From NCBI RefSeq assembly GCF_008369195.1, contig NZ_VOBC01000002.1, positions 62,001 to 126,000 of the forward strand: a stretch of DNA of 64,000 nucleotides. The letters are read 5' to 3'. The position numbers were made by a program, and so were the translations under genes. The first letter of the stretch is position 1; every line of letters starts with the position of its first letter. The stretch comes from Sporosarcina sp. ANT_H38. GTDB lineage: Bacteria; Bacillota; Bacilli; Bacillales_A; Planococcaceae. The notes below the pieces were generated by a model that worked only from the letters and a program-made list of their open reading frames with translations, searched no databases and was not told where the DNA came from. This document shows positions 3,874 to 63,678 of the stretch, in pieces.

Positions 3874-3908
3874 CCTACTTAAACTAAAACACCGTTAGTT
3901 GAAGTAGG
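3874..3908 (-). repeat. Cassette-boundary core (B-like)
   Basis: Core AACTAAAACACCGTTAGTT inside an outer CCTACTT/AAGTAGG stem. It is the first array element in the window, directly after the stop of the 3911-4399 gene. Confidence 0.75.
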
Positions 3909-3910
3909 AA

Positions 3911-4399
3911 TTATTTAACTTCCTCAATTTTAGAAACAGGAATTTCAATTTCTGTTCCTAATACATCATCTGAATCCAACGAAAAATCAGCAATAGCTTT
4001 GAATTCATAAGTACCTGTCTTTAATTCAAGTTTTTCTATCCCATTAAATTTTACTCTGTGAGGTTCATTCCGAATCAGTGTTGTTGTTAATAATGGCTGT
4101 ACCATACTACCTAAATATTCAAAATCACCATCTTGTTGATGTACATTAAAGAAAAAAATACTTCCACCATGATATATATCTTTTTCAGCTGCTTCTCCAA
4201 TATAAGTAATGGTGGCATAAACATTAAGGTCTTTTTCAACATTTATTGATACTTTGAAATCATCCACCTGTTTAGACTCATTGGTGATTTTTGGTTTACC
4301 ACTTACATTTTCTTCATTGTTGTTATTTGTTACAAAGCCAAATAGTCCGAAAATCATAATTATAGAAAGAACGATAAATAATCTTCTAATCGTTCCCAC
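3911..4399 (-). CDS. Secreted or membrane-anchored protein of unknown function
   Basis: 162 residues. The start is a GTG with a very G-rich ribosome site (AAGGGGGTGGG overlapping it). The N-terminal hydrophobic stretch RRLFIVLSIIMIFGLFGFV is a signal peptide or anchor without a lipobox Cys. The rest (about 40-160) is predicted beta-rich, with paired strands such as KLELKTGTYEFKAIADF. This is reminiscent of BsuPI-like or immunoglobulin-like extracellular domains (inference). It is a single cassette between B-like cores at 3874 and 4449. Confidence 0.75.
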   Translation of the reverse strand: MGTIRRLFIVLSIIMIFGLFGFVTNNNNEENVSGKPKITNESKQVDDFKVSINVEKDLNVYATITYIGEAAEKDIYHGGSIFFFNVHQQDGDFEYLGSMVQPLLTTTLIRNEPHRVKFNGIEKLELKTGTYEFKAIADFSLDSDDVLGTEIEIPVSKIEEVK

Positions 4400-4448
4400 C
4401 CCCTTTTACGATTAGACGGAATCCTAGTCGGTTTGTTTCATACTTATA

Positions 4449-4512
4449 CTAAACTCCTCTGTTAGTTGAAGAAGGAAAACCGAAATGGTTACATTTCGGT
4501 TTCCTTTTTTTA
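4449..4512 (-). repeat. Cassette-boundary core plus terminator
   Basis: Core CTAAACTCCTCTGTTAG with GTTGAAGAAGG flank (4449-4477). It overlaps a strong hairpin (GGAAAACCGAAATG 4475-4488, loop 4489-4492, CATTTCGG then TTTCC 4493-4505) with a T-run to about 4512. Confidence 0.7.
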
Positions 4513-4610
4513 TCAACGGTACGACTTTCTTTCAAATTTACAGCTATATGATACAACCTAGACTCGACCGCACAAGCACAAAGTTACTTTAAGTACAATT
4601 TCCCACAATC

Positions 4611-5000
4611 TTATTTACTTTGTAATTCTTCATGGTCAATTTCTTCTATTATTTCTTTAGAACCATCATCTTTAATTAAAGTTATTTCTACATCTTTAGT
4701 TGGACTAATTGCATACCAAAATCTTTTTTCACCTTCAACACTAATAATTTTTGAAGGTTCATCTCCAACATATACTTCGAGTATTGAATTATCACTTATT
4801 GCACCAGAATATATATAGGGTGGTTGGTTCATAGAAGACCATTTAACTGGAGAGATCCATTCTGTCCCTCTAGTTTGAATCCATTTCCATTAATTATCTA
4901 CTTTTTTAATATAAGCAATAAATATTTTTTCTTCATCATCATTACTATTTTCTCTAAAAACGGCTATTGCATCGTCCTCATGTACTACATTAAATTCCAT
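4611..5000 (-). pseudogene. Broken small gene with in-frame stop
   Basis: Reading the minus strand from the ATG at 5000, one frame runs 37 codons (ending ...AYIKKVDN), meets a single TAA, and continues in the same frame through WKWIQTRGTEWISPVKWSS into the 73-codon frame that ends at 4611. Sequence upstream of the ATG (KYSYGLVQ) also looks coding, so the 5' end may be missing too. No family is recognised. It could instead be an intact short protein starting at the ATG at 4832, but continuity across the stop favours a pseudogene. Confidence 0.6.
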
Positions 5001-5173
5001 TTGAACAAGTCCATATGAATATTTATTACTACTAAAACACGTCTTTTAAATTCTTATATTGAGCCACTTCCCGGAAGTAGCATTCTTCTATATAAAAAAT
5101 AAATAAAAAACGTGTATACTTTTTTCAAATCTCTGCGTCTTATGTGTGTTAACAACAAAAAGTAGGTGGCCAC

Positions 5174-7435: not shown

Positions 7436-8098
7436 CTACAAATAGAGCGTCTCATCCAATTTCTGAATCTTTGAGTCGGAAATTAAATAAACATTGCCAA
7501 AAACGTCGATTTTGTCTCCTTTTACACGTACAGCGCAATCTTTGTTCGACGCATAAATATTTATTTCTTCCGATAGGGGAGATAGTTCGCTTTGAACCAG
7601 CGCCATGTTATTTTCAAGATCAAAATGAGACAGGACGGAAAAATTGTCAAGACCGATTCCGTCGTAAACAGAGCTCATTTCAACTTCATCTCCAAAGTTT
7701 TTCGAACATAACCATTTAGCGGACATGTTGATTGCTCCAGCGCTTGCTCCCATCACAACGGCGTTGCTTTTTTTAATCGAATCCGATAATTCATATTCCG
7801 TCAAAAAACGATTTTGATTAAGAATATTGCCACCTAACAAGAAAATGACGGAAGCATTTTGAATTATCGTTTGGGCACCTTCCTTCTGTACGCGGTAATT
7901 AATTAAATGATACTCATCAAACATAATGCCAGCCTGATCGAGCCACGACCGTTCAGTAGCACCATCATCTTCAACAATAGATGGATTCGAGCTAATCATA
8001 GCAAGCGATTTTCTATCAGTTATATCCTCCTGTAACACCCTACCCAGATTCTCTGGAAAAAAGTTGTTAAACCAACCTAAATAATAGTGAGTTTTCAT
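7436..8098 (-). CDS. Peptidase E-like (S51 family) protein, copy 1
   Basis: 220 residues from the ATG at 8098, chosen because GAGGGGGT lies just upstream; the frame is open 17 codons further. The nucleophile elbow GASAGAINM (about 117-125), preceded by IFLLGGNIL, is typical of the S51 dipeptidase E/cyanophycinase fold, with the Ser as nucleophile. These enzymes cleave N-terminal Asp dipeptides or related substrates in the cytoplasm. About 90% identical to the copy at 15150-15806. It is a single cassette, and the copies sit between different boundary types. Confidence 0.85.
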   Translation of the reverse strand: MKTHYYLGWFNNFFPENLGRVLQEDITDRKSLAMISSNPSIVEDDGATERSWLDQAGIMFDEYHLINYRVQKEGAQTIIQNASVIFLLGGNILNQNRFLTEYELSDSIKKSNAVVMGASAGAINMSAKWLCSKNFGDEVEMSSVYDGIGLDNFSVLSHFDLENNMALVQSELSPLSEEINIYASNKDCAVRVKGDKIDVFGNVYLISDSKIQKLDETLYL

Positions 8099-8204
8099 AA
8101 GTACCCCCTCAGCAAAGTGTAAATAACATTTATTCCTTGCGTCACTCATTCTGTTTTCTTGTAACTCTCAATATGTCCGATTGTTAAACACAATTTAAAC
8201 AACA

Positions 8205-9135: not shown

Positions 9136-9163
9136 CTTAAACTAAAGCTCCCTTTAGTTTAAG
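9136..9163 (-). repeat. Cassette-boundary B core
   Basis: Perfect 11-bp stem CTTAAACTAAA/TTTAGTTTAAG around GCTCCC. Both arms differ from consensus in a compensated way. Confidence 0.8.
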
Positions 9164-9760: not shown

Positions 9761-9795
9761 CTTGTTGAACTAACCTGCCTCGTTAGTTGAACAAG
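9761..9795 (-). repeat. Cassette-boundary A core
   Basis: Stem CTTGTTGAACTAAC / GTTAGTTGAACAAG around CTGCCTC, with one mismatch in 14 pairs. Followed by an AGACGC...CGCACCCGATTG third-motif segment to about 9836. Confidence 0.85.
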
Positions 9796-10409: not shown

Positions 10410-10505
10410 TGCCCGATTGTTGAACCCAAGTTAAACAACGCTCTTCAACTAACCTGCCCCGTTAGTTCAATTAGAAAAAAGCTTTACTCCTTCTTGAAGT
10501 AAAGC
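10410..10505 (-). repeat. Third motif, A core and terminator
   Basis: GCCCGATTGTTGAACCCAAG third motif, A core CTAACCTGCCCCGTTAG (10443-10472), and a GCTTTACT/AGTAAAGC hairpin (10481-10505) that on the minus strand is followed by TTTTTTC. This is terminator type 4. Confidence 0.85.
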
Positions 10506-11031: not shown

Positions 11032-11059
11032 CTTGAAGTAAAGCACCCGTCAGTTTAAG
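11032..11059 (-). repeat. Cassette-boundary B core
   Basis: Core GTAAAGCACCCGTCAG with CTTGAA/TTTAAG flanks, directly after the stop of the 11050 gene and overlapping its last codons. Confidence 0.7.
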
Positions 11060-11434: not shown

Positions 11435-11463
11435 CTTCAACTAACCTGCCCCGTTAGTTGAAG
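11435..11463 (-). repeat. Cassette-boundary A core
   Basis: Perfect CTTCAACTAAC/GTTAGTTGAAG stem (11 bp) around CTGCCCC. The TAA stop of the 11454-11648 gene lies inside it. Confidence 0.9.
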
Positions 11464-11956: not shown

Positions 11957-12049
11957 CTTATTGAACTAACCTGCCCCGTTAGTTCAATAAGAAAAGAGCT
12001 CCCTAAGAAGCCCCTGTTGTTGAACTTAAGCACCCGTTAGCTTAACAAG
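11957..12049 (-). repeat. Full cassette boundary (A, terminator 1, B)
   Basis: A core CTAACCTGCCCCGTTAG in a CTTATTGAA/TTCAATAAG stem. Then terminator type 1: the minus strand GGGCTTC/GGAGCTC stem with TTAG loop, then TTTTCTT. Then B core with CTTAAGCACCCGTTAG. Confidence 0.9.
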
Positions 12050-12055: not shown

Positions 12056-12634
12056 CTAATTTTCAATTATTTTGTTCTCTGTTCCATTTACAATTCTCTT
12101 TATATTTTGTCGATGTAGAATGATTATCGATACGCTTATTAGTAGAGAAAGTGCTATGAAAACTTTATCTTCAAATATAAGACTGTAAATGAATAATGCT
12201 ATACTAGCCAACATTGAACTTAGTGATACATACTTAGTAAATAGCAAAGTTAACACAAACACAACAAAACCAACAAAAACAGCTAAAGGAGTCAAAAACA
12301 AGAAAACTCCAGTTGCTGTCGCAACTGCCTTTCCACCTTTAAAACTAGCAAAAACTGAAAATATGTGCCCTAATATGACTAATAAACCACATACAATAGG
12401 GTTAACTACAGAACCAAGTATTAAGGGAAGTAAACAAGCAAATGTACCTTTTAATATATCAGCAATTGCAACAATTACTCCTGCTTTTATGCCTAAAACT
12501 CTATAAGCATTAGTTGCACCAAGATTACCACTACCGTAATCACGAATATCTTTCTTATAAAATGTTTTACCGATTACTAAAGCAAATGAGATTGAGCCAA
12601 TTAAATAACTTAGAATCAAAGTTAAAATGTTCAA
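12056..12634 (-). CDS. plsY: Glycerol-3-phosphate acyltransferase PlsY
   Basis: 192 residues, TTG start with AAGGAG nine bases upstream. Multispanning membrane enzyme with the three PlsY motifs: GSGNLGATN (about 34-42), GHIFSVFASFKGGKAVATA (about 89-107) and HRQNIKRI near residue 175. PlsY transfers an acyl group from acyl-phosphate to glycerol-3-phosphate, the first step of phospholipid synthesis, at the membrane. A lone cassette copy is odd for a housekeeping enzyme; the genome probably has another plsY elsewhere (inference). Confidence 0.93.
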   Translation of the reverse strand: MNILTLILSYLIGSISFALVIGKTFYKKDIRDYGSGNLGATNAYRVLGIKAGVIVAIADILKGTFACLLPLILGSVVNPIVCGLLVILGHIFSVFASFKGGKAVATATGVFLFLTPLAVFVGFVVFVLTLLFTKYVSLSSMLASIALFIYSLIFEDKVFIALSLLISVSIIILHRQNIKRIVNGTENKIIEN

Positions 12635-12702: not shown

Positions 12703-12793
12703 TTCTTACATTAACCTGCCCCGTTAGTTCGATAAGAAAAGAGCTCCCTAAGAAGCCCCCGTTGTTGAATTAAAGCTACCCGTAAGTCGAATT
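12703..12793 (-). repeat. Full cassette boundary (A, terminator 1, B)
   Basis: TTAACCTGCCCCGTTAG core, terminator type 1 (GAGCTCCCTAAGAAGCCCCC), and a degenerate B core TTAAAGCTACCCGTAAG. Confidence 0.85.
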
Positions 12794-13289: not shown

Positions 13290-13420
13290 CAATATAGCCC
13301 GATTGTTGAACACAAATTAAACAACGCTCTTGAACTAACCTGCCTCGTTAGTTCAATAAGAAAAAAGAACTCCCTAAGAAGCCCCTGTTGCTGAACTAAA
13401 GCACCCGTTAGTTCAAGAAG
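13290..13420 (-). repeat. Full cassette boundary with third motif
   Basis: GCCCGATTGTTGAACACAAA third motif, A core CTAACCTGCCTCGTTAG (13328-13360), terminator type 1, B core CTAAAGCACCCGTTAG ending 13420. Confidence 0.9.
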
Positions 13421-13884
13421 AAGTTACAATTTAATTGTTTTTTCGCTTCTTTTACGATGGTTGAAATTAAAGATTCTATTGTAATTCCCTCTATATTATC
13501 GCCATATCGATAGTCGTCTATCATTTCACTAATCTCATACCATACATTTAATTCTTCGCTAACAAATTCTTCACGAACTACCTGATAAATTTCATATGCA
13601 TAGTTAATTGCATTAGATTCATTATCTATTATTTGTTTTAGCAAATACCAGAAGTAATACTTAGAACACTTATCCTGCGAGGGTTCTTCTATACCTAATT
13701 CTCTCACTGCCCTATGAAAATAATCTTCTACCTCAAAAGTATTTAGAGTTTCACTTAGGGAAGAAAGTATATTTAGGGATGCAGACGTATCACTACTTTC
13801 TAACATTTTGATAGCCCAATTAACATAATCGACTGGTTCTACTTTCTTTTTGAATATTTTATAATACAACATTTTAGTTTCCAT
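13408..13884 (-). CDS. 158-residue cassette protein, copy 1 of 3
   Basis: ATG at 13884 with AAGGAG six bases upstream (a GTG lies one codon earlier). A soluble, predominantly helical, acidic protein: VDYVNWAIKMLESSDTSASL, LSETLNTFEVEDYFHRAVRE, and LNVWYEISEMIDDYRYGDN. No family recognised. Identical at protein level to the copy at 52700, with two substitutions relative to 41851 (Ser/Asn in LES/LEN, Lys/Glu in DKC/DEC). Identity between copies begins in the B core and ends in the A core. Its organisation recalls small immunity- or regulator-like proteins, but nothing proves a role. Confidence 0.8.
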   Translation of the reverse strand: METKMLYYKIFKKKVEPVDYVNWAIKMLESSDTSASLNILSSLSETLNTFEVEDYFHRAVRELGIEEPSQDKCSKYYFWYLLKQIIDNESNAINYAYEIYQVVREEFVSEELNVWYEISEMIDDYRYGDNIEGITIESLISTIVKEAKKQLNCNFFLN

Positions 13885-13909
13885 CACTTACTCCTTTTAT
13901 TTTACTCTT

Positions 13910-13944
13910 CTTGTTGAACTAACCTGCCCCGTTAGTTTAATAAG
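13910..13944 (-). repeat. Cassette-boundary A core
   Basis: CTTGTTGAACTAAC / GTTAGTTTAATAAG around CTGCCCC. It marks the right end of the triplicated cassette, copy 1. Confidence 0.88.
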
Positions 13945-14374: not shown

Positions 14375-14460
14375 CTTATTGAACTAACCTGCACCGTTAG
14401 TTCAACAAGAAAAGAGCTGCTTAAGCACCCCTTTGTCTTTAACTAAAGCACCCGTTAGTA
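14375..14460 (-). repeat. Full cassette boundary (A, terminator, B)
   Basis: A core CTAACCTGCACCGTTAG, terminator variant (GAGCTGCTTAAGCACCCC), B core CTAAAGCACCCGTTAG followed immediately by TAATAAAA. Confidence 0.88.
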
Positions 14461-15033: not shown

Positions 15034-15128
15034 TCTCATTGAACTAACCTTCACCGTTAGTTCAATAAGAAAAGAGCTCCCTAAGAAGCCCCTGTTGTTG
15101 AACTAAAGCACCACGTTAGTTCAATTAA
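15034..15128 (-). repeat. Full cassette boundary (A, terminator 1, B)
   Basis: A core with unusual spacer (CTAACCTTCACCGTTAG), terminator type 1, B core CTAAAGCACCACGTTAG. The same A variant recurs at 19047 beside the sister gene. Confidence 0.9.
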
Positions 15129-15806: not shown

Positions 15807-15884
15807 AAGTATCTCCTCAGCAAAGTGTAAATAACAGTTATTCCTTGCGTCACTCATTCTGTTTTCTTGTCACTCTCAATATGC

Positions 15885-16005
15885 CCGATTGTTTAACACG
15901 AATTTAATAACACTCTTCAACTAAACTGCCCCGTTAGTTCAACAAGAAAAGAGCTACCTAAGCTGCCCTTGGTCTTTAACTAAAGCACCTCGTTAGTTTA
16001 ATAAG
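15885..16005 (-). repeat. Full cassette boundary with third motif
   Basis: GCCCGATTGTTTAACACGAA third motif, A core CTAAACTGCCCCGTTAG, terminator (GAGCTACCTAAGCTGCCC), B core CTAAAGCACCTCGTTAG ending near 16005. Confidence 0.88.
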
Positions 16006-16159: not shown

Positions 16160-17173
16160 TTATTTAAAAGTTTGTAACACAGTACCTTGACCATTATCTG
16201 ATTCAACTTCAGCGAATGCTCCATTTATAAAAGTCATTTGTGGCGGAACATGACCGCAATCAATATCGTACAAAATAGGAATTTGAAGCTCTTTAGAAAG
16301 TTCTTTATAAACATCTTCAACTGTATAATTTGTAACAGCTGGATTTGCTGGACTTCTCCCAAACATAATGCCACTACAATCCTCAAACCAACCTGCTAAT
16401 TTCATTTGCACGAGGGTCCTACGCAATTCAGTTGGCGATAACTGCAAATTTTCGAGATACCAAATAACAGAATCTCCTTCAATATAATTCTCTTTAAAAT
16501 TTTGTACATTCCCATATGGTGTACCAATCAGATGCCTAATTATATCAATACAACCACCAAGTAATCGCCCCTGTATCTTAACTTTTTCGTTTACAGTTGA
16601 TTTCCAGTTAGTTTGTTCTGTTAGATTGAAAATATAAGGAGTAGGGTTATCAGGTTGCCATTCTTTTTGATATTTTTCTGATGAATGTTGGAGAATTGAT
16701 TCATTCATTTTGGTAGACAATACTGTTCGCCACATCGCTGTCGTATCATCAGAATACTCTCCTCTTAAATCCACTAAGTTGGTTCCGTGTGCTGTAGCAG
16801 TACCCGTTTTCAATGTAATTGCTAACAGTAGCAGACTTATATCAGAATAACCTAATATCCACTTACTTTTTATATTTTCAAAGTCAATATATTCAAGTGT
16901 CTCAATGAGTAGCTCTCCGCCCCAAGGAGGAATAATAAGTTGAATATTATCACTAAGCATCATTTTATTGAACTCTTCTGCACGCTTTTTAGCAGATGCA
17001 GACTTTTCCTTATCTTGTGTCCATGCAGTTTCTCCGCAGATGAAGTTAAAACCTTTCTTTTCCACACTTTTGAATGCAGATTTCAACAAGTGATGTAATT
17101 CACTTGGGACTCCAGAGGATGGTGCAGTTACTCCTATTGTTGCACCTTTTTCTAAGATTGGATATTTTATCAT
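16160..17173 (-). CDS. S66 family (LD-carboxypeptidase/MccF-like) peptidase
   Basis: 337 residues from the ATG at 17173 (GGGAG about 12 bases upstream; open six codons further). N-terminal domain: GATIGVTAPSSGVPSE, then IIPPWGGELLIETLEYIDF and WILGYSDISLLLLAIT, where family members have 'GG.....L..id...i...pK.fiGYSDit' and the catalytic Ser lies in the nearby GxTxxGP-like region. C-terminal domain: GRLLGGCIDIIRHLIGTPYG and a terminal IDCGHVPPQMTFINGA. The His in GH and a Glu (YLENLQ) fit the Ser-Glu-His triad. Hydrolyses murein LD-tetrapeptides or microcin-type conjugates in the cytoplasm. Confidence 0.9.
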   Translation of the reverse strand: MIKYPILEKGATIGVTAPSSGVPSELHHLLKSAFKSVEKKGFNFICGETAWTQDKEKSASAKKRAEEFNKMMLSDNIQLIIPPWGGELLIETLEYIDFENIKSKWILGYSDISLLLLAITLKTGTATAHGTNLVDLRGEYSDDTTAMWRTVLSTKMNESILQHSSEKYQKEWQPDNPTPYIFNLTEQTNWKSTVNEKVKIQGRLLGGCIDIIRHLIGTPYGNVQNFKENYIEGDSVIWYLENLQLSPTELRRTLVQMKLAGWFEDCSGIMFGRSPANPAVTNYTVEDVYKELSKELQIPILYDIDCGHVPPQMTFINGAFAEVESDNGQGTVLQTFK

Positions 17174-17279
17174 GCTTAGCCACTCTCCCAACGCTTTTTA
17201 TAAAAACAACATTTTATATGTTATTAAAAAACACTTCTTTTATTACACTAACCTCCTTTTTCATAAAAAAAGCCGTATA

Positions 17280-17682: not shown

Positions 17683-17774
17683 CTTATTGAACTAAACAGC
17701 CTCGTTAGTTCAACAAGTAAGAAGAGCTGCCTAAGCAACAACATGATCTTTCACTAAAGCACCAGTTAGTTGAA
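17683..17774 (-). repeat. Full cassette boundary (A, terminator 3, B)
   Basis: A core CTAAACAGCCTCGTTAG, terminator type 3 (GAAGAGCTGCCTAAGCAACA ... GATCTTTC), B core CTAAAGCACCAGTTAG. Confidence 0.88.
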
Positions 17775-18443: not shown

Positions 18444-18470
18444 CTTGTTCAACTAACCTGCCCCGTTAGT
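18444..18470 (-). repeat. A core fused directly to a gene end
   Basis: CTTGTTCAACTAACCTGCCC then CGTTAGTAAAAAAAATTAAT. The A core sits where the sister copy (14375-14460) has terminator plus B core. A probable recombination product. Confidence 0.85.
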
Positions 18471-19046: not shown

Positions 19047-19137
19047 CTTATTGAACTAACCTTCACCGTTAGTTCAATAAGAAAAGAGCTCCCTAAGAAG
19101 CCCCTGTTGTTGAACTAAAGCACCCGTTAGTTGAAGA
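19047..19137 (-). repeat. Full cassette boundary (A, terminator 1, B)
   Basis: A core variant CTAACCTTCACCGTTAG shared only with 15034, terminator type 1, B core CTAAAGCACCCGTTAG with GTTGAAGAAG flank. Confidence 0.9.
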
Positions 19138-20090: not shown

Positions 20091-20182
20091 CTCAACTAAA
20101 CTGCCCTGTTAGTTCAATAAGAAAAAAGAGCTCCCTAAGAAGCCCTTGTTGTTGAACTAAAGCACCCGTTAGTTAAAGAAGA
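20091..20182 (-). repeat. Full cassette boundary (A, terminator 1, B)
   Basis: A core CTAAACTGCCCTGTTAG, terminator type 1, B core CTAAAGCACCCGTTAG. Confidence 0.88.
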
Positions 20183-32261: not shown

Positions 32262-32290
32262 TGTTCGACTAAAGTACTTGTTAGTTGAAG
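32262..32290 (-). repeat. Cassette-boundary B core
   Basis: CTAAAGTACTTGTTAG with GTTGAAG flank, directly downstream of the GNAT gene. Confidence 0.75.
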
Positions 32291-36591: not shown

Positions 36592-36703
36592 ATTGTGGAA
36601 CAAGCTAAAAAATTTCTTATTGAACTAACCCCGTTAGTTCAATAAGAAAAGAGCTCCCTAAGAAGCCCCTGTCGTTGAACTAAAGCACCCGTTAGTTGAA
36701 TAA
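36592..36703 (-). repeat. Full cassette boundary, shortened A spacer
   Basis: GGCTCGATTG motif, A core CTAACCCCGTTAG (spacer CCCC), terminator type 1, B core CTAAAGCACCCGTTAG. Confidence 0.88.
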
Positions 36704-38643: not shown

Positions 38644-39105
38644 ATCCCTTCCACCCCATGTCTATATTATAAGAAAACTATTGCCTCATCAGATTACCAT
38701 AAAATCCCGAAAAATATTAATTAACTATTGACAATTTTAGCACTCTATTCCCTATGTATGAATAAAACAAATTACATTTCAAAAACTTTGGAGTATATAG
38801 AAAGAAAACTAATTAAAGACCGTTCGTAAAAATGGATAACGACTTTACGAGCATCTCCTTATTTCCAGATACCTTTATGAACTGTGTTTCCATTCAAAAT
38901 TAAACAACTTTATTATTTGTTGACACTAAATATGGTATAAATCTCAATTAATAGTATCACTGTTCTTATTCAACTAAATGCGGCGTTAGTTCAATAAGAA
39001 AAAGCTACCCCTAAAGGCAGCCTCTTGTTAAACTAAAGCACCCGTTAGTTTAAGTGCAATCATTCACATACTAAAGGGATTGTTAGGCGAATTGTTGAAT
39101 TAACC
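38644..39105. other. Intergenic region with one cassette boundary
   Basis: No gene seen in 38644-38960 (AT-rich). The boundary element follows at 38965-39055. Confidence 0.65.
38965..39055 (-). repeat. Full cassette boundary (A, terminator 2, B)
   Basis: A core CTAAATGCGGCGTTAG, minus-strand hairpin GGCTGCCTTTAGGGGTAGC then TTTTTC, B core CTAAAGCACCCGTTAG. Confidence 0.88.
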
Positions 39106-39654
39106 TTAGCATTGATTCCAGTCTCTTTTTAACAAAGAAAAAGAATAGTGGTCATAATACTTTCCTCTAAACAAATGCTTATCTCTGTAAATCCCTTCAT
39201 TCTTAAATCCTAGCTTTTCTAATAATTTTATAGAATTGATATTTTCCAAAGCTACAAATGCGTTAATTCTATTCAGTGCCATATTATTAAAGCCACTTTC
39301 GATAGCTACTTTCAATCCCTCTTTCATATATCCCTGTCCCCAATATTCGTGCCATAAATCATAGCCTATCTCCGCCGTTCTATTCCAAGAATCATATCCA
39401 CACGTTCCAATTTGTTGCTGATTATTTTTTTCGACTAATATCCACCGATTAAATCCTTTTTCTTCAGGATTTGAATTCCATTCAACAAACTCTGTAGCTT
39501 CATTTCTAGTAGTAAACAATTCCTCATCATATAAAAATTTACATACTTTTTCGTTGCTGAAGAGTCGATAAATAAAGTCAATATCCTCATTTCCCACATT
39601 CCGCAAAATCAATCTGTCAGTTTCTAAATTAGGGAATTTACTATGTACAGTCAC
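39106..39654 (-). CDS. RimJ/RimL-type GNAT acetyltransferase
   Basis: 182 residues from the GTG at 39654, eight bases after AAGGAG (an in-frame GTG at 39663 overlaps the ribosome site). Acetyltransf_3 features: LETDRLILRNVGNEDIDFIY, IGTCGYDSWNRTAEIGYDLW, HEYWGQGYMKEGLKVAIESG, and NRINAFVALENINSIKLLEK with GF..EG. Probably N-acetylates protein N-termini or small amines. Confidence 0.93.
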   Translation of the reverse strand: MTVHSKFPNLETDRLILRNVGNEDIDFIYRLFSNEKVCKFLYDEELFTTRNEATEFVEWNSNPEEKGFNRWILVEKNNQQQIGTCGYDSWNRTAEIGYDLWHEYWGQGYMKEGLKVAIESGFNNMALNRINAFVALENINSIKLLEKLGFKNEGIYRDKHLFRGKYYDHYSFSLLKRDWNQC

Positions 39655-39759
39655 TTTAAGCACTCCTTATAATAACTAAATTTGAAACATTTATTATTAG
39701 ATGAACAACGTTAAATCTTTACGTCTTTACTATTTGGACAGTCTTTAAAATATGCCTTC

Positions 39760-39862: not shown

Positions 39863-40702
39863 TTGTTACTATCAAAAGCATGGTCTTCGTTTGAAGCTGA
39901 TAAACAAATACAGGATTTTTCACCACAAACGCTGAAGGCCTATCAGTTACAGTCTAGGCTACTAATCGGTTATTTTAAGGATGTAGAGATGGAATCGCTG
40001 GATACAAATCAACTGAAGGAATACCATGCTGTATCGGTCAAGCATTTGAAACCAGCCAGTCTTGCACATCGCATCCGCTTTATAGAATCTTTTTTTCATT
40101 GTTCTCATGAAGAAGGCTACCTGAGTAAGAATCCAACTTCCAAGATTAAAGAGGCCAAAGTAGGTAAGCGGATACCCAAGTATTTAACCGAACGGGAGAT
40201 TGAACACCTTCGTGAATCCTGTCATACCCCAATAGAAAAAGCGATTTTTGAATTCATGTTTTCTACCGGTTGTCGAATTGGAGAAATAGTTGCGTTAGAA
40301 AAGAACAATATTAATTGGACCAATCAATCCGCGTTCGTTAGAGGAAAAGGTTATAAGGTGAGGGGATTTTATTTTAATATACGATGCGACATATGGCTTA
40401 AACAGTATATTGAAAGCCGTAATGACAATAATCCTGCCATCCTTGTGACAGTCAGGCAGCCACATAAAATAAGTGTTGCCCAAATGCGATACATCATCAA
40501 GCGGATCTCCAATCGTGCTGAAATTATTAAAGAGATTCATCCACACCAACTAAGACACAGCTATGCCACTCATTTGTTGCCTAATGGAGCTCCACTTGAA
40601 GTCATACAAAATCTTATGGGGCATGAGAAAAGTGAAACCACAAGGATATACGCTCATTTAAACGGAAGGATAAGGAAAGAGTATTATCAGAAGTACTTTT
40701 AA
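39863..40702 (+). CDS. Tyrosine recombinase (XerC/D-like integrase)
   Basis: 279 residues, TTG start with TGGAGGAATAG upstream. An N-terminal SAM-like core-binding domain (about 1-95: SPQTLKAYQLQSRLLIGYFK, SLAHRIRFIESFFHCSHEEG) precedes the catalytic domain. All active-site residues are visible: Arg138 in STGCRIGEI, Lys165 (or 162) in RGKGYKVR, His228 and Arg231 in HPHQLRHSYATH, His254 in MGHE, Tyr263 in TTRIYAHL. Length and spacing fit Xer-type enzymes; the extra IntI insertion is not seen. It lies on the opposite strand from most cassettes, between an A core (39760) and a B core (40739). A candidate enzyme for cassette movement (inference). Confidence 0.93.
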   Translation: MLLSKAWSSFEADKQIQDFSPQTLKAYQLQSRLLIGYFKDVEMESLDTNQLKEYHAVSVKHLKPASLAHRIRFIESFFHCSHEEGYLSKNPTSKIKEAKVGKRIPKYLTEREIEHLRESCHTPIEKAIFEFMFSTGCRIGEIVALEKNNINWTNQSAFVRGKGYKVRGFYFNIRCDIWLKQYIESRNDNNPAILVTVRQPHKISVAQMRYIIKRISNRAEIIKEIHPHQLRHSYATHLLPNGAPLEVIQNLMGHEKSETTRIYAHLNGRIRKEYYQKYF

Positions 40703-40738: not shown

Positions 40739-40767
40739 ACTTGACTAAAGCACCCCGTTAGTCAAAT
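40739..40767 (-). repeat. B core downstream of the recombinase gene
   Basis: TTGACTAAAGCACCCCGTTA then GTCAAATAA: compensated arm change (TTGAC/GTCAA). Preceded by a GAGCAA/TTGCTC hairpin at about 40711-40737. Confidence 0.85.
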
Positions 40768-41583
40768 AATCCCTGCTCTTTCCATTGGTCTAAAATTTTC
40801 CGACTCAAGTCTGTTTAACCAGTTATGCACTAACGCGTTAAATACATCGGTTTGTTCGATTTGTAGGTTGTGACCAGCCATGTCAAGCACTACAAAAGTT
40901 GCCCTTGGGTAATCTTCAATTAGTCGCCACGCATCGTGGTAACCGACTACATTGTCCTGACGTCCTGTGATAATTAGCGTGGGAGACTCAAGTTTAGATG
41001 AAATATCGAAGGTAAAGCCATATCCATTTTGACGAATGTGGTTTACGAATTCATAATTTGTTTGTTTAGAAGGAAGTAAAATTTCATTTCGAAACCTCTC
41101 CCATTCAGTTTGACCTTGCACTACCCCCATGGAGCAAAAACCTTCAGCATCCTCTGGTGACAAATGTGAGATCAAGTTGCTGTCTCTTTTTAGAACGGTC
41201 TGCTGTGGTACTACCCTTTCATCGAATTCAGGTATAGTCAAGGGTGCCATCAACAGTAATCCACGTACTGTGTCCTGCCGTGAACGGACTATCCCCCTGG
41301 CAATGTAGCCACCATAGGAATTACCACAAATAACAAACGGTTGACCTGGGATTATCTCGTCCAAAAGCCGTAATATCGCTTCTAAAATATCATCAGAGTT
41401 CTGAATAGATGGTTGCGATTCGGAATGCCCCATACCTGGTAAATCTATGTATATTCTCTTCCAACCACTTCGTTTCTCGAATAACGGTTCCATTGCATGT
41501 AACATCACTTGATGGTCAAGCGTCCAACCGTGCAACATAACGATGGGATATCCTTCTCCAATTACTTTATGGTAAATCGACAT
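40762..41583 (-). CDS. Alpha/beta hydrolase
   Basis: 273 residues from the ATG at 41583, preceded by AAGGGGGAAAC. YPIVMLHGWTLDHQ oxyanion strand, nucleophile elbow CGNSYGG (Ser about 98), acid in ITGRQDNVVGYHDAW and catalytic His in DMAGHNLQIEQ. The full triad indicates an active esterase/lipase-like or C-C hydrolase enzyme. Substrate unknown. Confidence 0.92.
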   Translation of the reverse strand: MSIYHKVIGEGYPIVMLHGWTLDHQVMLHAMEPLFEKRSGWKRIYIDLPGMGHSESQPSIQNSDDILEAILRLLDEIIPGQPFVICGNSYGGYIARGIVRSRQDTVRGLLLMAPLTIPEFDERVVPQQTVLKRDSNLISHLSPEDAEGFCSMGVVQGQTEWERFRNEILLPSKQTNYEFVNHIRQNGYGFTFDISSKLESPTLIITGRQDNVVGYHDAWRLIEDYPRATFVVLDMAGHNLQIEQTDVFNALVHNWLNRLESENFRPMERAGII

Positions 41584-41668
41584 GTATTTGTTTCCCCCTT
41601 CCCAGTAATAAACCAGATGTATGAACATTTAATCCTCTCATACATCTATTTGAATTTCAATAAATTTC

Positions 41669-41863
41669 CTTATCCAACTAAACTGCCCCGTTAGTTGAAC
41701 AAGAAATTGGATTCGCTAAATGAAATCAATCTTGTATACGCCATGCACACGAGGTTGACATAACACCCATTCACGGAAGTAGTTAACTTCATTATGCAAT
41801 AAGAAAAAGCCACCCTGTAAAGGCAGCCGATTGTTCAACTAAAGCACCCGTTAGTTCAAGAAG
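41669..41863 (-). repeat. Long-form cassette boundary, complete
   Basis: A core CTAAACTGCCCCGTTAG in a GTTGAACAAG flank. Long-form arm (CTTGTATACGCCATGCACAC, TTCACGGAAGTAGTTAACTT). Terminator type 2 (GGCTGCC/GGTGGC then TTTTTC on the minus strand). B core CTAAAGCACCCGTTAG. The best-preserved long form. Confidence 0.9.
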
Positions 41864-42327
41864 AAGTTACAATTTAATTGTTTTTTCGCTTCTTTTACGA
41901 TGGTTGAAATTAAAGATTCTATTGTAATTCCCTCTATATTATCGCCATATCGATAGTCGTCTATCATTTCACTAATCTCATACCATACATTTAATTCTTC
42001 GCTAACAAATTCTTCACGAACTACCTGATAAATTTCATATGCATAGTTAATTGCATTAGATTCATTATCTATTATTTGTTTTAGCAAATACCAGAAGTAA
42101 TACTTAGAACACTCATCCTGCGAGGGTTCTTCTATACCTAATTCTCTCACTGCCCTATGAAAATAATCTTCTACCTCAAAAGTATTTAGAGTTTCACTTA
42201 GGGAAGAAAGTATATTTAGGGATGCAGACGTATCACTATTTTCTAACATTTTGATAGCCCAATTAACATAATCGACTGGTTCTACTTTCTTTTTGAATAT
42301 TTTATAATACAACATTTTAGTTTCCAT
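41851..42327 (-). CDS. 158-residue cassette protein, copy 2 of 3
   Basis: ATG at 42327 after AAGGAG. Same helical acidic protein as at 13408, with Asn for Ser (LENSDT) and Glu for Lys (SQDECS). Left neighbour is a long-form type 2 boundary and right neighbour a type 3 boundary, whereas copy 1 has type 1 and a bare A core. The flanks differ abruptly at the cores while the interior is almost identical, which points to recent movement or conversion through the cores. Confidence 0.82.
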   Translation of the reverse strand: METKMLYYKIFKKKVEPVDYVNWAIKMLENSDTSASLNILSSLSETLNTFEVEDYFHRAVRELGIEEPSQDECSKYYFWYLLKQIIDNESNAINYAYEIYQVVREEFVSEELNVWYEISEMIDDYRYGDNIEGITIESLISTIVKEAKKQLNCNFFLN

Positions 42328-42352
42328 CACTTACTCCTTTTATTTTACTCTT

Positions 42353-42447
42353 CTTGTTCAACTAACCTGCTTCGTTAGTTCAACAAGTAAGAAGAGCTGA
42401 CTAAGCAACCACATGATCTTTCACTAAAGCACCGGTTAGTTTAATAA
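42353..42447 (-). repeat. Full cassette boundary (A, terminator 3, B)
   Basis: A core CTAACCTGCTTCGTTAG in CTTGTTCAA/TTCAACAAG, terminator type 3 (GAAGAGCTGACTAAGCAACC), B core CTAAAGCACCGGTTAG. Confidence 0.9.
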
Positions 42448-51889: not shown

Positions 51890-52092
51890 TTACCAGTTTG
51901 TTGAACAAGAAACTCGAATATCTCCATTCGCAAACTATCAATTCAATCGCTGAACGGGCTTGTATAGTCCATACACAGCAGGTTTATATAACGCCAGTTC
52001 ACGGCAGTAGTTAACTCCATTACTCAAGAAAAACTGCCCTGTAAATAAAGGCAGCCGGTTGTTCGACTAAAGCGCCCGTTAGGTCAATAAGA
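51890..52092 (-). repeat. Long-form cassette boundary
   Basis: Right half of an A core (GTTGAACAAG), long-form arm (CTGAACGGGCTTGTATAGTC, TTCACGGCAGTAGTTAACTC), terminator type 2 hairpin, B core CTAAAGCGCCCGTTAG. Confidence 0.82.
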
Positions 52093-52616: not shown

Positions 52617-52713
52617 CTTGTTCAACTAACCTGCCCCGTTAGTTCAACAAGTAAGAATAACTGCCCCAGCAGCCACAAGATCTTTCACTAAAGCACCCGT
52701 TAGTTCAAGAAGA
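52617..52713 (-). repeat. Full cassette boundary (A, terminator 3, B)
   Basis: A core CTAACCTGCCCCGTTAG in CTTGTTCAA/TTCAACAAG, type 3 variant (CTGCCCCAGCAGCCACAAGA), B core CTAAAGCACCCGTTAG. Confidence 0.9.
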
Positions 52714-53176
52714 AGTTACAATTTAATTGTTTTTTCGCTTCTTTTACGATGGTTGAAATTAAAGATTCTATTGTAATTCCCTCTATATTATCGCCATATC
52801 GATAGTCGTCTATCATTTCACTAATCTCATACCATACATTTAATTCTTCGCTAACAAATTCTTCACGAACTACCTGATAAATTTCATATGCATAGTTAAT
52901 TGCATTAGATTCATTATCTATTATTTGTTTTAGCAAATACCAGAAGTAATACTTAGAACACTTATCCTGCGAGGGTTCTTCTATACCTAATTCTCTCACT
53001 GCCCTATGAAAATAATCTTCTACCTCAAAAGTATTTAGAGTTTCACTTAGGGAAGAAAGTATATTTAGGGATGCAGACGTATCACTACTTTCTAACATTT
53101 TGATAGCCCAATTAACATAATCGACTGGTTCTACTTTCTTTTTGAATATTTTATAATACAACATTTTAGTTTCCAT
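52700..53176 (-). CDS. 158-residue cassette protein, copy 3 of 3
   Basis: ATG at 53176 after AAGGAG. Identical in protein sequence to copy 1 (13408-13884), 39 kb away, and two residues different from copy 2. Left boundary is type 3 and right boundary type 1, a third combination of flanks. Near-identity at DNA level from core to core, with unrelated sequence outside, makes this the clearest mobile unit of the window. Confidence 0.82.
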   Translation of the reverse strand: METKMLYYKIFKKKVEPVDYVNWAIKMLESSDTSASLNILSSLSETLNTFEVEDYFHRAVRELGIEEPSQDKCSKYYFWYLLKQIIDNESNAINYAYEIYQVVREEFVSEELNVWYEISEMIDDYRYGDNIEGITIESLISTIVKEAKKQLNCNFFLN

Positions 53177-53201
53177 CACTTACTCCTTTTATTTTACTCT
53201 T

Positions 53202-53290
53202 CTTGTTCAACTAACCTGCCCCGTTAGTTCAATAAGAAAAGAGCTCCCTAAGAAGCCCCTGTTGTTGAGCTAAAGCACCCGTTAGTTTAA
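53202..53290 (-). repeat. Full cassette boundary (A, terminator 1, B)
   Basis: A core CTAACCTGCCCCGTTAG with CTTGTTCAA on one side and TTCAATAAG on the other, terminator type 1, B core CTAAAGCACCCGTTAG. Confidence 0.9.
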
Positions 53291-55662: not shown

Positions 55663-55847
55663 TCTTCAACTAAACTGCCCCGTTAGTTGAACAAGAAACT
55701 CGATTCGATCGCTGAACGACCTTGCATACGTCATGCACACGAGGTTAACATAACACCAATTCCCGGAAGTATTTAATTTCATTACTCAATAAAAAAAGCT
55801 GCCATGAACGGCAGCCGATTGTTCAACTAAAGTACCTGTTAATTGAA
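55663..55847. repeat. Long-form cassette boundary
   Basis: A core CTAAACTGCCCCGTTAG with GTTGAACAAG flank, long-form arm (GACCTTGCATACGTCATGCA, CCCGGAAGTATTTAATTTCA), CTGCC/GGCAG terminator hairpin, degenerate B core CTAAAGTACCTGTTAATTG. Confidence 0.85.
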
Positions 55848-56372: not shown

Positions 56373-56399
56373 TGACTAAACTGCCCCGTTAGTGTAAGT
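56373..56399. repeat. Cassette-boundary A core
   Basis: TTTGACTAAACTGCCCCGTT then AGTGTAAGTG. Confidence 0.75.
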
Positions 56400-57810: not shown

Positions 57811-57890
57811 TTGTTATTCAACTCTCCTGCCCCGTTAGTAAAAAAGGCTTTACTCCTTCTTGAAGTAAAGCACCCCGTTAGTTGAATAAG
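57811..57890 (-). repeat. Full cassette boundary (A, terminator 4, B)
   Basis: CTCTCCTGCCCCGTTAGTAAAAA, GCTTTACT/AGTAAAGC hairpin, B core GTAAAGCACCCCGTTAG with GTTGAATAAG. Confidence 0.88.
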
Positions 57891-57899
57891 AGAGATGTA

Positions 57900-58195: not shown

Positions 58196-58275
58196 TCTTC
58201 AACTAAACTGCCTCGTTAGTTCAATAAGAAAAGCATTAGAGTTGTTCAACTAAAGCCAACCGTTAGTTGAATAAC
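58196..58275 (-). repeat. Cassette boundary (A, short linker, B)
   Basis: A core CTAAACTGCCTCGTTAG, then AAGAAAAGCATTAGAG (no clear hairpin), then TTCAACTAAAGCCAACCGTT with GTTGAATAAC. Confidence 0.85.
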
Positions 58276-58677: not shown

Positions 58678-58712
58678 CTTATTCAACTAACCTGCCTCGT
58701 TAGTTGAACAAG
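58678..58712 (-). repeat. Cassette-boundary A core
   Basis: CTTATTCAACTAAC / GTTAGTTGAACAAG around CTGCCTC; one G-T type mismatch. Third-motif pieces follow at about 58780-58805 (GATTAAACAATCTCGCCCGA). Confidence 0.88.
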
Positions 58713-61239: not shown

Positions 61240-62487
61240 GTGAACGATAATAATTTGATTATTAAAAATATATATAACCCTCATAAGCTTGAGAGAATGT
61301 TTAGAAATGACCCCAAAGCCTTTAAAAAGTCATTCTCATACGCATGGGAACAAAATCCTGATTCGAAGGTTCTTGCTGTTTGGTATGAAAGATTAAATTT
61401 CAAGGAGACGGCACATACAGAAAAAACTTCCTTTCTTCAACAAGATTTCTTATTCATGAGCATTTTAGCCATTTTGGCCGGGATAAGCACAAGGATCATT
61501 TTCCATTTTGTAGAACAGGAAACAATTGCCCCAATTAACCTTGCTTTTGGGGTTCTTCCCTATATTGGCGCCTATTTTGTATACAAAAATAAACCTCGAA
61601 AAAAGGTTCTTTACACACTTGCATTGTTGTTCCTAATCTCCGGTTTGTATCTTAATATGCTGCCATTAAATGTTAATGATAGTACTATCCTTGCTTATTT
61701 ACACCTTCCCATATTCTTATGGGGATTGATAGGGCTCGCATTTATAGGTAATGAATATTCAAAAGGAAGCACAAGATTAGCCTATCTTAAATTCAATTTG
61801 GAACTTTGCATACTCTACGCCAGCATGGCCTTTAGCGGAATGCTGTTAGCAGCATTAACTATGCAGTTATTTAGCTTTGTCGATCTAGATATAGCAGACT
61901 TCTATTTTAGAAATGTTGTGTTATTTGGTGCTGCTGCTCTCGCTATTGTGGCTACCTACCTGGTGTCAATGAATCTTAAACTTGCTAAGAATATTACACC
62001 ATATATAGCTAAAATTTTTAGTCCTCTTGTCCTGGTCACTTTGTTGGTCTATCTTATAACGGTTATTTGGGTCGAAAAAAATCCATTCTTGGACAGAAAT
62101 TTCCTGATAGCATTTAACGGAATACTCCTTGGTGTTTTGGCTGTTAACATATTTTCAATTACCGAAAGCGGCACAGACGAGAAAAAGAACATTTCTGATT
62201 ATATAAATTTCGCCCTAATTGTTTTAGCTCTTGTCATTGACAGTGTAGCTTTGTCAGCCATAGTTTTTAGACTTTCTTCTTTTGGGATTACACCAAACAG
62301 ACTTGCTGTTTTAGGTGTAAACATACTTATCTGGGGAAACCTTATTTGGATTATGATCTCCTATATGCGTTTTCTACAAAACAAGACCGGACCTTCACCC
62401 ATCCAAGATGCGGTTACTAAGTATTTGCCAGTCTACGTACTTTGGGCGGCTTTCGTTACATTTACTTTTCCTTTCATTTTTAATTAG
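61240..62487 (+). CDS. Multispanning membrane protein (DUF4153-like)
   Basis: 415 residues from the GTG at 61240 (GGGGAGGC upstream). A soluble N-terminus with NPHKLERMFRNDPKAFKKSF and SYAWEQNPDSKVLAVWYERL is followed by about ten membrane helices. Pattern resembles DUF4153-type proteins (moderate). Probably in the same operon as the DUF2975/HTH pair. Function unknown. Confidence 0.8.
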   Translation: MNDNNLIIKNIYNPHKLERMFRNDPKAFKKSFSYAWEQNPDSKVLAVWYERLNFKETAHTEKTSFLQQDFLFMSILAILAGISTRIIFHFVEQETIAPINLAFGVLPYIGAYFVYKNKPRKKVLYTLALLFLISGLYLNMLPLNVNDSTILAYLHLPIFLWGLIGLAFIGNEYSKGSTRLAYLKFNLELCILYASMAFSGMLLAALTMQLFSFVDLDIADFYFRNVVLFGAAALAIVATYLVSMNLKLAKNITPYIAKIFSPLVLVTLLVYLITVIWVEKNPFLDRNFLIAFNGILLGVLAVNIFSITESGTDEKKNISDYINFALIVLALVIDSVALSAIVFRLSSFGITPNRLAVLGVNILIWGNLIWIMISYMRFLQNKTGPSPIQDAVTKYLPVYVLWAAFVTFTFPFIFN

Positions 62488-62526
62488 AAAGGCTTTATTA
62501 ATGTAACGGTTGCTGATCTTCCTTAT

Positions 62527-62582
62527 AAAAGCCAAAAATGAACAAGTTTCTATTCAAAACTTGTTCATTTCCGGCTTTTTAT
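62527..62582 (+). terminator. Strong operon terminator
   Basis: AAAAGCC/GGCTTTTT outer and AAATGAACAAGTTT/AAACTTGTTCATTT inner arms (62527-62580), 7-nt loop, T-run. Confidence 0.85.
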
Positions 62583-62622
62583 TTTCCTAAAAAAACTCTA
62601 TTGTTACATGATAAAACAAATA

Positions 62623-62730
62623 CCTTATTGAACTAACCTGCTCCTTTAGTTGAACAAGGAATTTGATCGCTGAACAAGGTTATATGCTGCATGCACCCCT
62701 AAGACATAACACGCTTTCAGGGGCATTCGA
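62623..62730 (-). repeat. A core with decayed long-form arm
   Basis: CTTATTGAACTAACCTGCTC then CTTTAGTTGAACAAG; then GATCGCTGAACAAGGTTATA and GACATAACACGCTTTCAGGG from the long form. Confidence 0.8.
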
Positions 62731-62769
62731 AATTAAATAAAAGAGATAAATCTTTATAGGCTTTCCGAT

Positions 62770-63222
62770 TTATTTTGTTTTAAATTTTTCAGATAAAGTT
62801 TCGCTCCCAATTGCTCCAATAATTGAAGTAATAAATGGAATTGCCATGTACAGTATTGATCCTTGGAAGAACGTAATATCAAAGTTCAAAAATTTATTTC
62901 CAATTGCTATAAAAATTTTGGCAGCTACTAGAAATAAGCCCATGACTAGAAGTATGTCAAAGAATAGTTTTAATCTTGGATAAGCTAATTGCTTCCCATC
63001 TTCAATGATTTTTTCCTTCAAATGATCATCTCCTTTCAATAATTCATCGATTGTAATGTCAAAAACTTCACTTAGTTTAATTAGCGATTCAATACCGGGA
63101 TAACCTTCTCCACGTTCCCATTTTGAGATCGATTGTCTACTAATGTTAAGTAATTCACCAAGCTGTTGTTGCGACATTTCATGTTTTAGACGTTCTTCTT
63201 TAATTTTTTTTTGGAAATACAT
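62770..63222 (-). CDS. Xre-family HTH protein with C-terminal membrane domain
   Basis: 150 residues from the ATG at 63222, preceded by AGGAG. N-terminal HTH_3: KIKEERLKHEMSQQQLGELL, NISRQSISKWERGEGYPGIE, LSEVFDITIDELLKGDD (about 5-65). The C-terminal half has two membrane helices (LFFDILLVMGLFLVAAKIFI and SILYMAIPFITSIIGAIG). A membrane-tethered regulator of the kind common in Bacillales. Target unknown. Confidence 0.9.
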   Translation of the reverse strand: MYFQKKIKEERLKHEMSQQQLGELLNISRQSISKWERGEGYPGIESLIKLSEVFDITIDELLKGDDHLKEKIIEDGKQLAYPRLKLFFDILLVMGLFLVAAKIFIAIGNKFLNFDITFFQGSILYMAIPFITSIIGAIGSETLSEKFKTK

Positions 63223-63678
63223 TTCTTCAACTCCTAACCCAAATATACTTGTGTCTCTATCTAAACGTAAAGAACCGTGCAGTAGCAACTATGTAAACTA
63301 ATAGTTGCGTAATAAAAGAGACAAATCTTTATAAGTTTTCACGGAAGTATTTACCTTCATTACGCAATAAGCATCAATCCATTTTATCATTACGTATAAA
63401 TGTTTCTGTAAATTCATTCATGTATTCGTTCATTTCCTTATATCAAGTCCAATGTAGATAATGGTGTCCTTAGTTACATTACTTAATTGAGTTAAAATTG
63501 TAATTATTTCTTTTTTGCTGAACGGATATTCTATACACACCAGCTTTACATAACGCCAGTTCACGGCAGTATTTAGCTTTACTACTCAATAAGAAAAGGC
63601 TGCCCTGTAAGACAGCCAATACTTAACTATAGCAACCGTTAGTTTAAGAAGGAAATTAAAAAAGCATAATATAACCTG
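63223..63678. other. Intergenic region with long-form boundary
   Basis: No gene. A partial arm at about 63339-63375 (TTCACGGAAGTATTTACCTT) and a further long-form element from about 63510. Confidence 0.7.
63510..63650 (-). repeat. Long-form cassette boundary
   Basis: GCTGAACGGATATTCTATAC, TTCACGGCAGTATTTAGCTT, terminator type 2 hairpin (GGCTGTC/GGCAGCC then TTTTC on the minus strand), degenerate B core CTATAGCAACCGTTAG with TTTAAG flank. Confidence 0.82.

Follow-up and report, generated by a model that had tools for sequence, protein, structure and literature searches.

A putative chromosomal gene-cassette array with its own tyrosine recombinase in Sporosarcina and other Bacillales

We examined a stretch of 64,000 nucleotides from the genome of Sporosarcina sp. 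ANT_H38 (contig C2, NZ_VOBC01000002.1; C2:62001-126000), referred to here as the window, in which genes are bounded by copies of two short repeats, the A and B cores. Our analysis indicates that this region very probably belongs to a chromosomal array of gene cassettes operated by a tyrosine recombinase of its own, a type of array present in many Bacillales genera. An earlier note on the window, made from its letters, had described an integron-like cassette array built on a two-core boundary element. The cassette array stands; the recombinase lying inside it had gone unnoticed. The likeness to integrons holds for function, as a movable cassette array, and not for strict integron membership, since the model for the integron integrase IntI failed and fold-based attC sites were not found.

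With up to three mismatches allowed, the window contains 50 cores (22 A, CTAAAGCACCCGTTAG, and 28 B, CTAACCTGCCCCGTTAG), all on the plus strand—32 of them at no more than one mismatch and 43 at no more than two. Ten dinucleotide shuffles of the window yielded no core at one or two mismatches and 0-1 at three, which establishes the boundary repeat as real. Across the genome, the A core at one mismatch was found 27 times forward and 3 times in reverse, with 0 and 0 matches for a reversed control pattern; more diverged copies also occur in the window, e.g., at 4449, 8213, 20957, 40745, 42769 and 59918. Two spacer classes can be distinguished, A (CTAA-AGCACCC-GTTAG) and B (CTAAC-CTGCNNC-GTTAG), with outer arms CTTNTTNAA / TTNAANAAG, and each single core forms an imperfect palindrome of ~34-36 nt. 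A typical element reads TTCTTATTGAAC-TAACCTGCCCCGTTAG-TTCAATAAG, spacer, TTGAAC-TAAAGCACCCGTTAG-TTGAAG, the core-to-core spacer being 42 nt in the commonest element classes and B and A often lying ~59 nt apart from start to start. The fixed order of parts claimed previously was recovered in the sense of the minus-strand genes: stop codon, A core (CTAAAGCACCCGTTAG), hairpin with a run of T, B core (CTAACCTGCCCCGTTAG) and next gene. In 99 elements from all arrays, the B-A spacer folded into a weak hairpin in gene sense (mean folding z -1.6) and carried a run of at least four T in 91%; on the opposite strand, the folding z was -1.3 (first 60 elements) and a T-run was present in 17%.

The core arms CTTNTTNAACTAAC / GTTAGTTNAANAAG are kept in sequence, and pairing covariation of their variable positions was detected neither within single cores nor between the two cores of an element (331 B, 370 A and 99 elements; eight tests, z -0.9 to 1.7); at the ends of gene units, the covariation z was 2.4 and -0.3. 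Being conserved in sequence without covariation, they look like the protein-binding arms of double-stranded sites. The absence of covariation also led us to reject an attC-like folding of the cores. Of the composite two-core element proposed in the earlier note, the order and the terminator hairpin were retained, but each core acts as a separate site—so that the terminator spacer would itself be an exchangeable module and not part of one composite attC-like element.

A genome search for tyrosine recombinases identified one gene inside the array, oriented opposite to the cassettes and placed between the cores at 39768 and 40745, with a TTG start behind GGAGG. Its 279-amino-acid (aa) product belongs to the tyrosine recombinase superfamily, with a PF00589 domain (5.5e-36) and, in the alignment, the residues R138, H228/R231, H254 and Y263, which we take to be catalytic. 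It scored under the cut-off of the XerA (NF040815, 196.9 of 220 bits), XerD (183 of 330) and XerC (179 of 335) models. With the XerA-like recombinases (NF040815; PDB 4a8e, 5hxy) it shares protein family, size and conserved residues, and it differs from them in its score under the model cut-off (197/220 bits) and in its association with cassette arrays. A structure prediction (20 alignment rows) was poor, with a predicted local distance difference test (pLDDT) score of 53, and was not used.

A true but diverged integron, in which an IntI-type integrase acts on folded single-strand attC sites, would account for a cassette array with a tyrosine recombinase, for B and A cores often ~59 nt apart and for simple sites sharing GTTAG, a motif that recalls attC. 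However, the recombinase reached only 81.4 bits against the cut-off of 265 for the integron integrase model TIGR02249, its best stretch covering residues 200-268 only. Its gene is placed inside the array, in many loci in a cassette-like slot, with terminator-like spacers separating the cassettes. PMC9668308 describes IntI as carrying an IntI-specific domain, and PMC8946536 describes attC sites as conserved in fold and not in sequence. By its model score (the domain itself was not aligned), the recombinase of the array does not qualify as IntI, and the cores—sequence-conserved arms without pairing covariation—show the reverse of the attC pattern. We consider a true integron of this kind extremely unlikely. 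The resemblance to integrons, sedentary chromosomal ones included, lies in long one-orientation arrays of mostly single-gene cassettes, short boundary sites, a tyrosine recombinase and cassettes shared across genera, and arrays here without a recombinase resemble CALINs (clusters of attC sites lacking integrases). The differences are an XerA/XerD-like recombinase that fails the IntI model and often forms a core-bounded unit within the array, sites that look double-stranded, a terminator-like spacer after many cassettes and a Bacillales host. An integron platform has attI and Pc beside intI; here, the core that 55 of 76 relatives' loci carry ~95 bp upstream of the recombinase gene might act as such a primary site. 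The recombinase itself lies within arrays.

A protein search returned 733 relatives of the recombinase, the best 120 of which were 67-100% identical to it (the top row being the window's own protein), and the named organisms among these best 120 were nearly all Bacillales. One genome per species was then scanned for the relatives' loci, giving 365 coding stretches; the best 80 of these were kept and correspond to 78 distinct loci from many Bacillales genera. With A at up to three and B at up to four mismatches, and the non-recombinase strand as control, cores were present in 77 of the 78 loci—712 on the recombinase strand against 22 on the other. Flanking cores were counted with a laxer pattern in the 76 loci with enough sequence: the usual upstream place (~95 bp) was occupied in 55 (2.9% in random windows of the same loci), the usual downstream place (~40-50 bp, behind a terminator) in 56 (random windows, 4.7%) and both in 41. 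The left half of the A core differs by recombinase lineage, reading CTAAA or GTAAA in 51/64 cases in loci L038-L057 vs 14/121 in L058-L115. Moreover, a recombinase match was found in 26 of 32 genomes with at least 10 A cores vs 54 of 229 others (hand count), and a sister clade of the recombinase seems to account for many of the 54. At E 1e-120, 18 of 398 genomes of the class had relatives (sister clade included), as did 3 of 398 in a phylum sample, all three of the same class; the own genome is counted in both figures.

These distributions bear on the proposal that the system resembles dif modules and that XerC/XerD of the host move it, the embedded recombinase being a passenger. In dif modules, site orientation alternates in inverted fashion. 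Here, 712 of 734 cores point one way, and the core variants follow the recombinase lineage, both of which speak against a passenger role. The dif-like shape of the sites and the existence of core-rich genomes without the recombinase favor it, as does exchange mostly between like spacers, the rule given for sites of Acinetobacter plasmid dif modules (pdif) in PMC13141974. These modules also resemble the present arrays in having genes bounded by short two-arm sites (PMC13141974), and differ in that the arrays have a dedicated recombinase in place of the host XerC/XerD, uniform orientation, chromosomal besides plasmid locations and two spacer classes flanking genes and terminators. The host dif was looked for with a dif sequence of Bacillus subtilis, which had no match in this genome. 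On balance, this alternative is improbable.

Evidence that the units move came from a Blast comparison among the own array, the 78 loci and nine further array stretches, in which blocks of 250-2500 bp with at least 80% identity were collected and those touching the recombinase removed, leaving 305. Counting a block end as core-bound when it lay within 30 bp of a core in both sequences, 42 left ends, 58 right ends and 10 blocks at both ends qualified, compared with 43, 33 and 0 of 6100 in 20 shifted control rounds—single ends at cores thus being 20-35 times commoner than in controls. In the subset of 267 blocks between different sequences, the figures were 36, 52 and 5. An earlier count of 120/694 blocks with both ends at cores was withdrawn, as it was inflated by recombinase copies left in the extra genome stretches. 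Within the own contig, a 159-aa cassette occurs three times (13.4, 41.8 and 52.7 kb), with flanks that diverge from the cores outward. Cassettes are common to other genera at 83-98% identity, and those of the own contig matched at 98.2% over 1753 bp in genome G137, 97.0% over 708 bp in G133 (inferred to be Psychrobacillus), 93% in L042, 91% in L110 and 90% in L038; some cross-genus alignments stop at cores and others elsewhere. Two arrays of the Paenisporosarcina group, G075 and G076, are collinear and ~97-100% identical for many units, with whole units differing between shared ones, and three clean core-to-core empty sites were recovered. Together, these whole-unit differences, empty sites, core-biased block ends and cross-genus cassettes bear out the integron-like mobility that the earlier note had supposed: single-gene cassettes move as site-bounded units, and gain or loss of core-bounded genes was seen in two related arrays, with no sign of the permanent synteny that would have spoken for immobile genes.

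The same data address the possibility that the cores are inert repeats—terminators, or sequences akin to repetitive extragenic palindromes (REP) or miniature inverted-repeat transposable elements (MITE)—without a recombinase, the mobility reflecting RecA-dependent recombination between them. Terminator-like spacers, the abundance of the repeats, genomes without the recombinase and the many blocks not core-ended on both sides are what inert repeats would give. Against this stand the 20-35-fold excess of single block ends at cores, the mapping of exchange to within the core and the tie of the cores to one recombinase family and its strand. In addition, a genome search for the Y1 (HUH) transposase PF01797 gave 0 matches at E 0.001, so that neither an IS200/IS605 element nor a REP system with its associated tyrosine transposase (RAYT) is indicated. 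We regard inert repeats as highly improbable.

Where exchange occurs can be read from the unit ends. At left ends, identity is complete rightwards from the C before GTTAG (10 B-B pairs, with 0.9 at one site); at right ends, it stays high as far as the left arm (16 pairs); and the two variable bases (NN) of the B spacer differ between copies at both. This pattern places the switch inside the core, the spacer being the simplest location. The spacer class was kept between copies at 27/30 left and 30/33 right typed ends, with one special module left out. A strict rule pairing A with A and B with B was weakened by improved typing, in which 12/38 left and 9/46 right ends were discordant, the first typing having over-counted concordance; one cassette, for instance, stands behind an A core at 14443 and behind a B core at 18453. 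Eight of the nine discordant right ends carry a CGCAC motif and were taken for group II intron ends, a nearby intron being confirmed in L046 alone. The final mapping dropped 23 CGCAC-motif ends and the recombinase-containing blocks (855 at 80% identity, 471 at 88%); in its typing, 21 of 24 discordant left ends involve one module (CCATCC). The L046 intron itself (RF02005, L046:8227-8462) lies within ~40 bp of a B core. Group IIC introns occur at integron attC sites, a setting called to mind by the L046 case and by the similar end motifs at cores elsewhere, with the difference that the core here is no attC.

Taking these observations together, we infer the following mode of action for a cassette array with its own recombinase. 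The core would be a double-stranded, dif-like site whose two inverted binding arms enclose a spacer of ~6-7 nt; the XerA/XerD-like recombinase would bind the arms, then cut and exchange strands within the spacer. Two directly repeated cores would recombine to excise the segment between them as a circle, and in the reverse reaction such a circle could insert at any other core, with like spacers preferred. Genes (A-gene-B), terminator spacers (B-terminator-A) and often the recombinase gene would be separable modules, and the uniform direction of the cores would preserve cassette orientation. The terminator spacer would insulate each cassette, which means that cassettes probably carry their own promoters.

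Several observations weigh against this account. Three of the 78 loci hold fewer than two cores, and the usual-place core is missing upstream in 21/76 loci and downstream in 20/76, those without the upstream core including Oceanobacillus, Virgibacillus, Gracilibacillus, Aquibacillus and Paucisalibacillus. At E 1e-60, no match to the recombinase was found in six core-rich genomes (G076, G141, G134, G180, G220 and G151; 10 to 102 A cores). Plasmid L138 carries a 44% relative close to 11 cores that point the other way, and in L141 a reversed B core stands ~40 bp downstream of a 59% relative. Among the shared blocks, 295 of 305 lack both ends at cores in both sequences, and only 3 of 38 candidate indels examined are clean, most others representing one internal deletion in one recombinase copy vs many relatives. 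A and B spacers were exchanged at 3/30 left and 3/33 right typed ends (24/67 left ends once the CCATCC module is included), an outcome not predicted by plain spacer homology. Finally, of 136 positions scored as invariant in 19 relatives, 13 are altered in the window's recombinase, against 1-4 in those relatives themselves; judging from these substitutions, it may be weak, dead or decaying, and the Sporosarcina array may therefore now be mostly fixed or moved in trans. As a separate observation, the core-rich genomes without a recombinase match resemble cassette clusters without an integrase.

The link of the cores to the 279-aa clade is thus not strict. The sister clade (L142-L153) consists of 280-aa recombinases that are 52-60% identical and have a similar leader just before the ATG; in 12 of its loci, the 140-150 bp flanking the gene on each side are free of cores, and 0-4 cores occur in 9.7-16 kb. 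Palindromes of the form AACAATC-N6-GATTGTT numbered 53 in 15 sister-clade loci vs 19.6 in shuffles, and they are also enriched in the 279-aa loci (208 vs 133) and in the own contig (34 vs 14.6); a second, GATTGTT-armed core specificity for the 280-aa clade is only a lead. Our overall interpretation, which we hold to be likely, is that a cassette platform arose in Bacilli from XerA/XerD-like recombinases independently of integrons, with double-stranded sites, two spacer classes alternating around genes and terminators, and a recombinase that is often its own cassette—perhaps with two or more recombinase clades, of which the second (280 aa) might use GATTGTT-armed cores of its own.

On contig C2, the array covers 20533-50370 and 66449-128090 and extends beyond the window on both sides. 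The continuous span of 3874..63650 first assigned to it is therefore both too short and interrupted: at 20.2-32.3 kb and 42.8-52.1 kb there are few or no cores and, in part, ordinary plus-strand genes. The reported bias toward minus-strand genes was confirmed in the 66 units of 150-2500 bp of the whole array: 50 have their main open reading frame (ORF) on the minus strand and 6 on the plus strand. The remaining 10 have no ORF of at least 50 aa wholly between core ends, which is due in part to ORFs that run into a core before they stop. The gene content also agrees with the acetyltransferases, hydrolases and DUF proteins named before: we identified GNAT acetyltransferases, alpha/beta hydrolases, peptidases S51 and S66, a serine beta-lactamase-family protein, a methyltransferase, AHSA1, DUF2785, DUF3885 and DUF5412, and several scanned cassettes have no known family. 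Defence-system models matched none of 10 cassette proteins. The positions of cores and selected genes are collected in Table 1.

Table 1. Features of the cassette array in the window (window positions).
Feature	Position	Strand	Basis
Tyrosine recombinase, 279 aa, XerA/XerD-like	39863..40702	+	PF00589, NF040815, alignment
Core upstream of recombinase, B spacer, right arm replaced by TAAAAA	39768..39784	+	sequence; core here in 55/76 relatives' loci
Core downstream of recombinase, A type CTAAAGCACCCCGTTAG, behind terminator hairpin	40745..40761	+	sequence; core here in 56/76 relatives' loci
A core	9142..9157	+	mismatch scan
B core	9770..9786	+	mismatch scan
B core	10449..10465	+	mismatch scan
A core	11038..11053	+	mismatch scan
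B core	11441..11457	+	mismatch scan
B core	11966..11982	+	mismatch scan
Terminator-like spacer separating a B from an A core; core starts 59 nt apart	11983..12024	-	sequence, folding
A core	12025..12040	+	mismatch scan
B core	12711..12727	+	mismatch scan
B core	13335..13351	+	mismatch scan
A core, left end of three-copy cassette	13396..13411	+	mismatch scan, copy comparison
B core, right end of three-copy cassette	13919..13935	+	mismatch scan, copy comparison
B core	14384..14400	+	mismatch scan
A-like match, 3 mismatches, in spacer between 14384 and 14443; probably no site	14420..14435	+	mismatch scan
A core; its cassette also starts at B core 18453	14443..14458	+	copy comparison
B core	15044..15060	+	mismatch scan
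A-type core, 17 nt	15103..15119	+	sequence
B core	15921..15937	+	mismatch scan
A-type core, 17 nt	15980..15996	+	sequence
B core	17692..17708	+	mismatch scan
A core	17754..17769	+	mismatch scan
B core joined to cassette that starts at A core 14443	18453..18469	+	copy comparison
B core	19056..19072	+	mismatch scan
A core	19115..19130	+	mismatch scan
B core	20096..20112	+	mismatch scan
A core	20157..20172	+	mismatch scan
A core	32269..32284	+	mismatch scan
B core	33894..33910	+	mismatch scan
A core	33945..33960	+	mismatch scan
B core	35371..35387	+	mismatch scan
A core	35430..35445	+	mismatch scan
B core	35789..35805	+	mismatch scan
A core	35848..35863	+	mismatch scan
A core	36680..36695	+	mismatch scan
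A core	39033..39048	+	mismatch scan
B core	41678..41694	+	mismatch scan
A core	41839..41854	+	mismatch scan
B core	42362..42378	+	mismatch scan
A core	42424..42439	+	mismatch scan
A core	52067..52082	+	mismatch scan
B core	52626..52642	+	mismatch scan
A core	52688..52703	+	mismatch scan
B core	53211..53227	+	mismatch scan
A core	53270..53285	+	mismatch scan
B core	55670..55686	+	mismatch scan
A core	55827..55842	+	mismatch scan
B core	56376..56392	+	mismatch scan
B core	57822..57838	+	mismatch scan
B core	58203..58219	+	mismatch scan
B core	58687..58703	+	mismatch scan
B core	62633..62649	+	mismatch scan
A core	63627..63642	+	mismatch scan
Cassette gene, 159 aa, no Pfam family, first of three copies	13408..13887	-	Pfam scan, copy comparison
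Second copy of 159-aa cassette gene, different core context	41851..42330	-	copy comparison
Third copy of 159-aa cassette gene, different core context	52700..53179	-	copy comparison
Cassette gene, peptidase S51 family; near-copy at 15150-15857	7436..8149	-	family match
Cassette gene, glycerol-3-phosphate acyltransferase family	12056..12634	-	family match
Cassette gene, LD-carboxypeptidase family	16160..17191	-	family match
Cassette gene, GNAT acetyltransferase	39106..39663	-	family match
Cassette gene, alpha/beta hydrolase	40762..41628	-	family match

Further features were observed alongside the array. The core-free interruption at window positions 42861-50022 carries plus-strand genes for a chitin-binding lytic polysaccharide monooxygenase (LPMO), a sigma-54 regulator, an aminotransferase and a nucleoside-recognition protein. 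A separate repeat of ~300-700 bp occurs in both orientations at 26427-27120, 31930-32250, 44708-45219 and 50017-50320, with a 38-bp palindrome inside it at 26522 and 50167 and further copies outside the window. At 29 places in loci of many genera (e.g., L077:5083 and L046:8559), an A or B core is followed by a sequence that begins GTTAG-CCATCCATG, and behind this sequence lies a conserved non-coding stretch of perhaps 200 bp, as judged from two copies. Cassette arrays were also found on plasmids, one core-bounded unit carrying mercury-resistance genes: on plasmid pSP10-266k of Sporosarcina psychrophila (L136:12125-14827), a unit with merA, merR and a NUDIX gene stands beside a core-bounded recombinase.

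Among the titles and abstract openings of the open-access literature matches listed, a set to which preprints do not belong, no description of these cores or arrays was found, in keeping with the earlier note, which knew of no described system with this architecture in Bacillales; the term "gene cassette" carries another sense in PMC8779076. By the tests run, the array could be assigned to no known cassette system; in function it is convergent with integrons and dif modules. According to the IntegronFinder 2.0 paper, complete integrons are almost absent from Firmicutes, with a single case in Limnochorda. This near-absence raises the question of how accessory genes are stockpiled there. For one group, the array system, in which A-type core matches reach 198 in genome G133, provides an answer. 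If the integron idea evolved independently here, two separate solutions would be open to comparison in site logic, expression and control. As several of the scanned cassettes belong to no known family, the arrays also offer a catalogue of genes for testing, and a recombinase with two spacer classes may be a useful tool.

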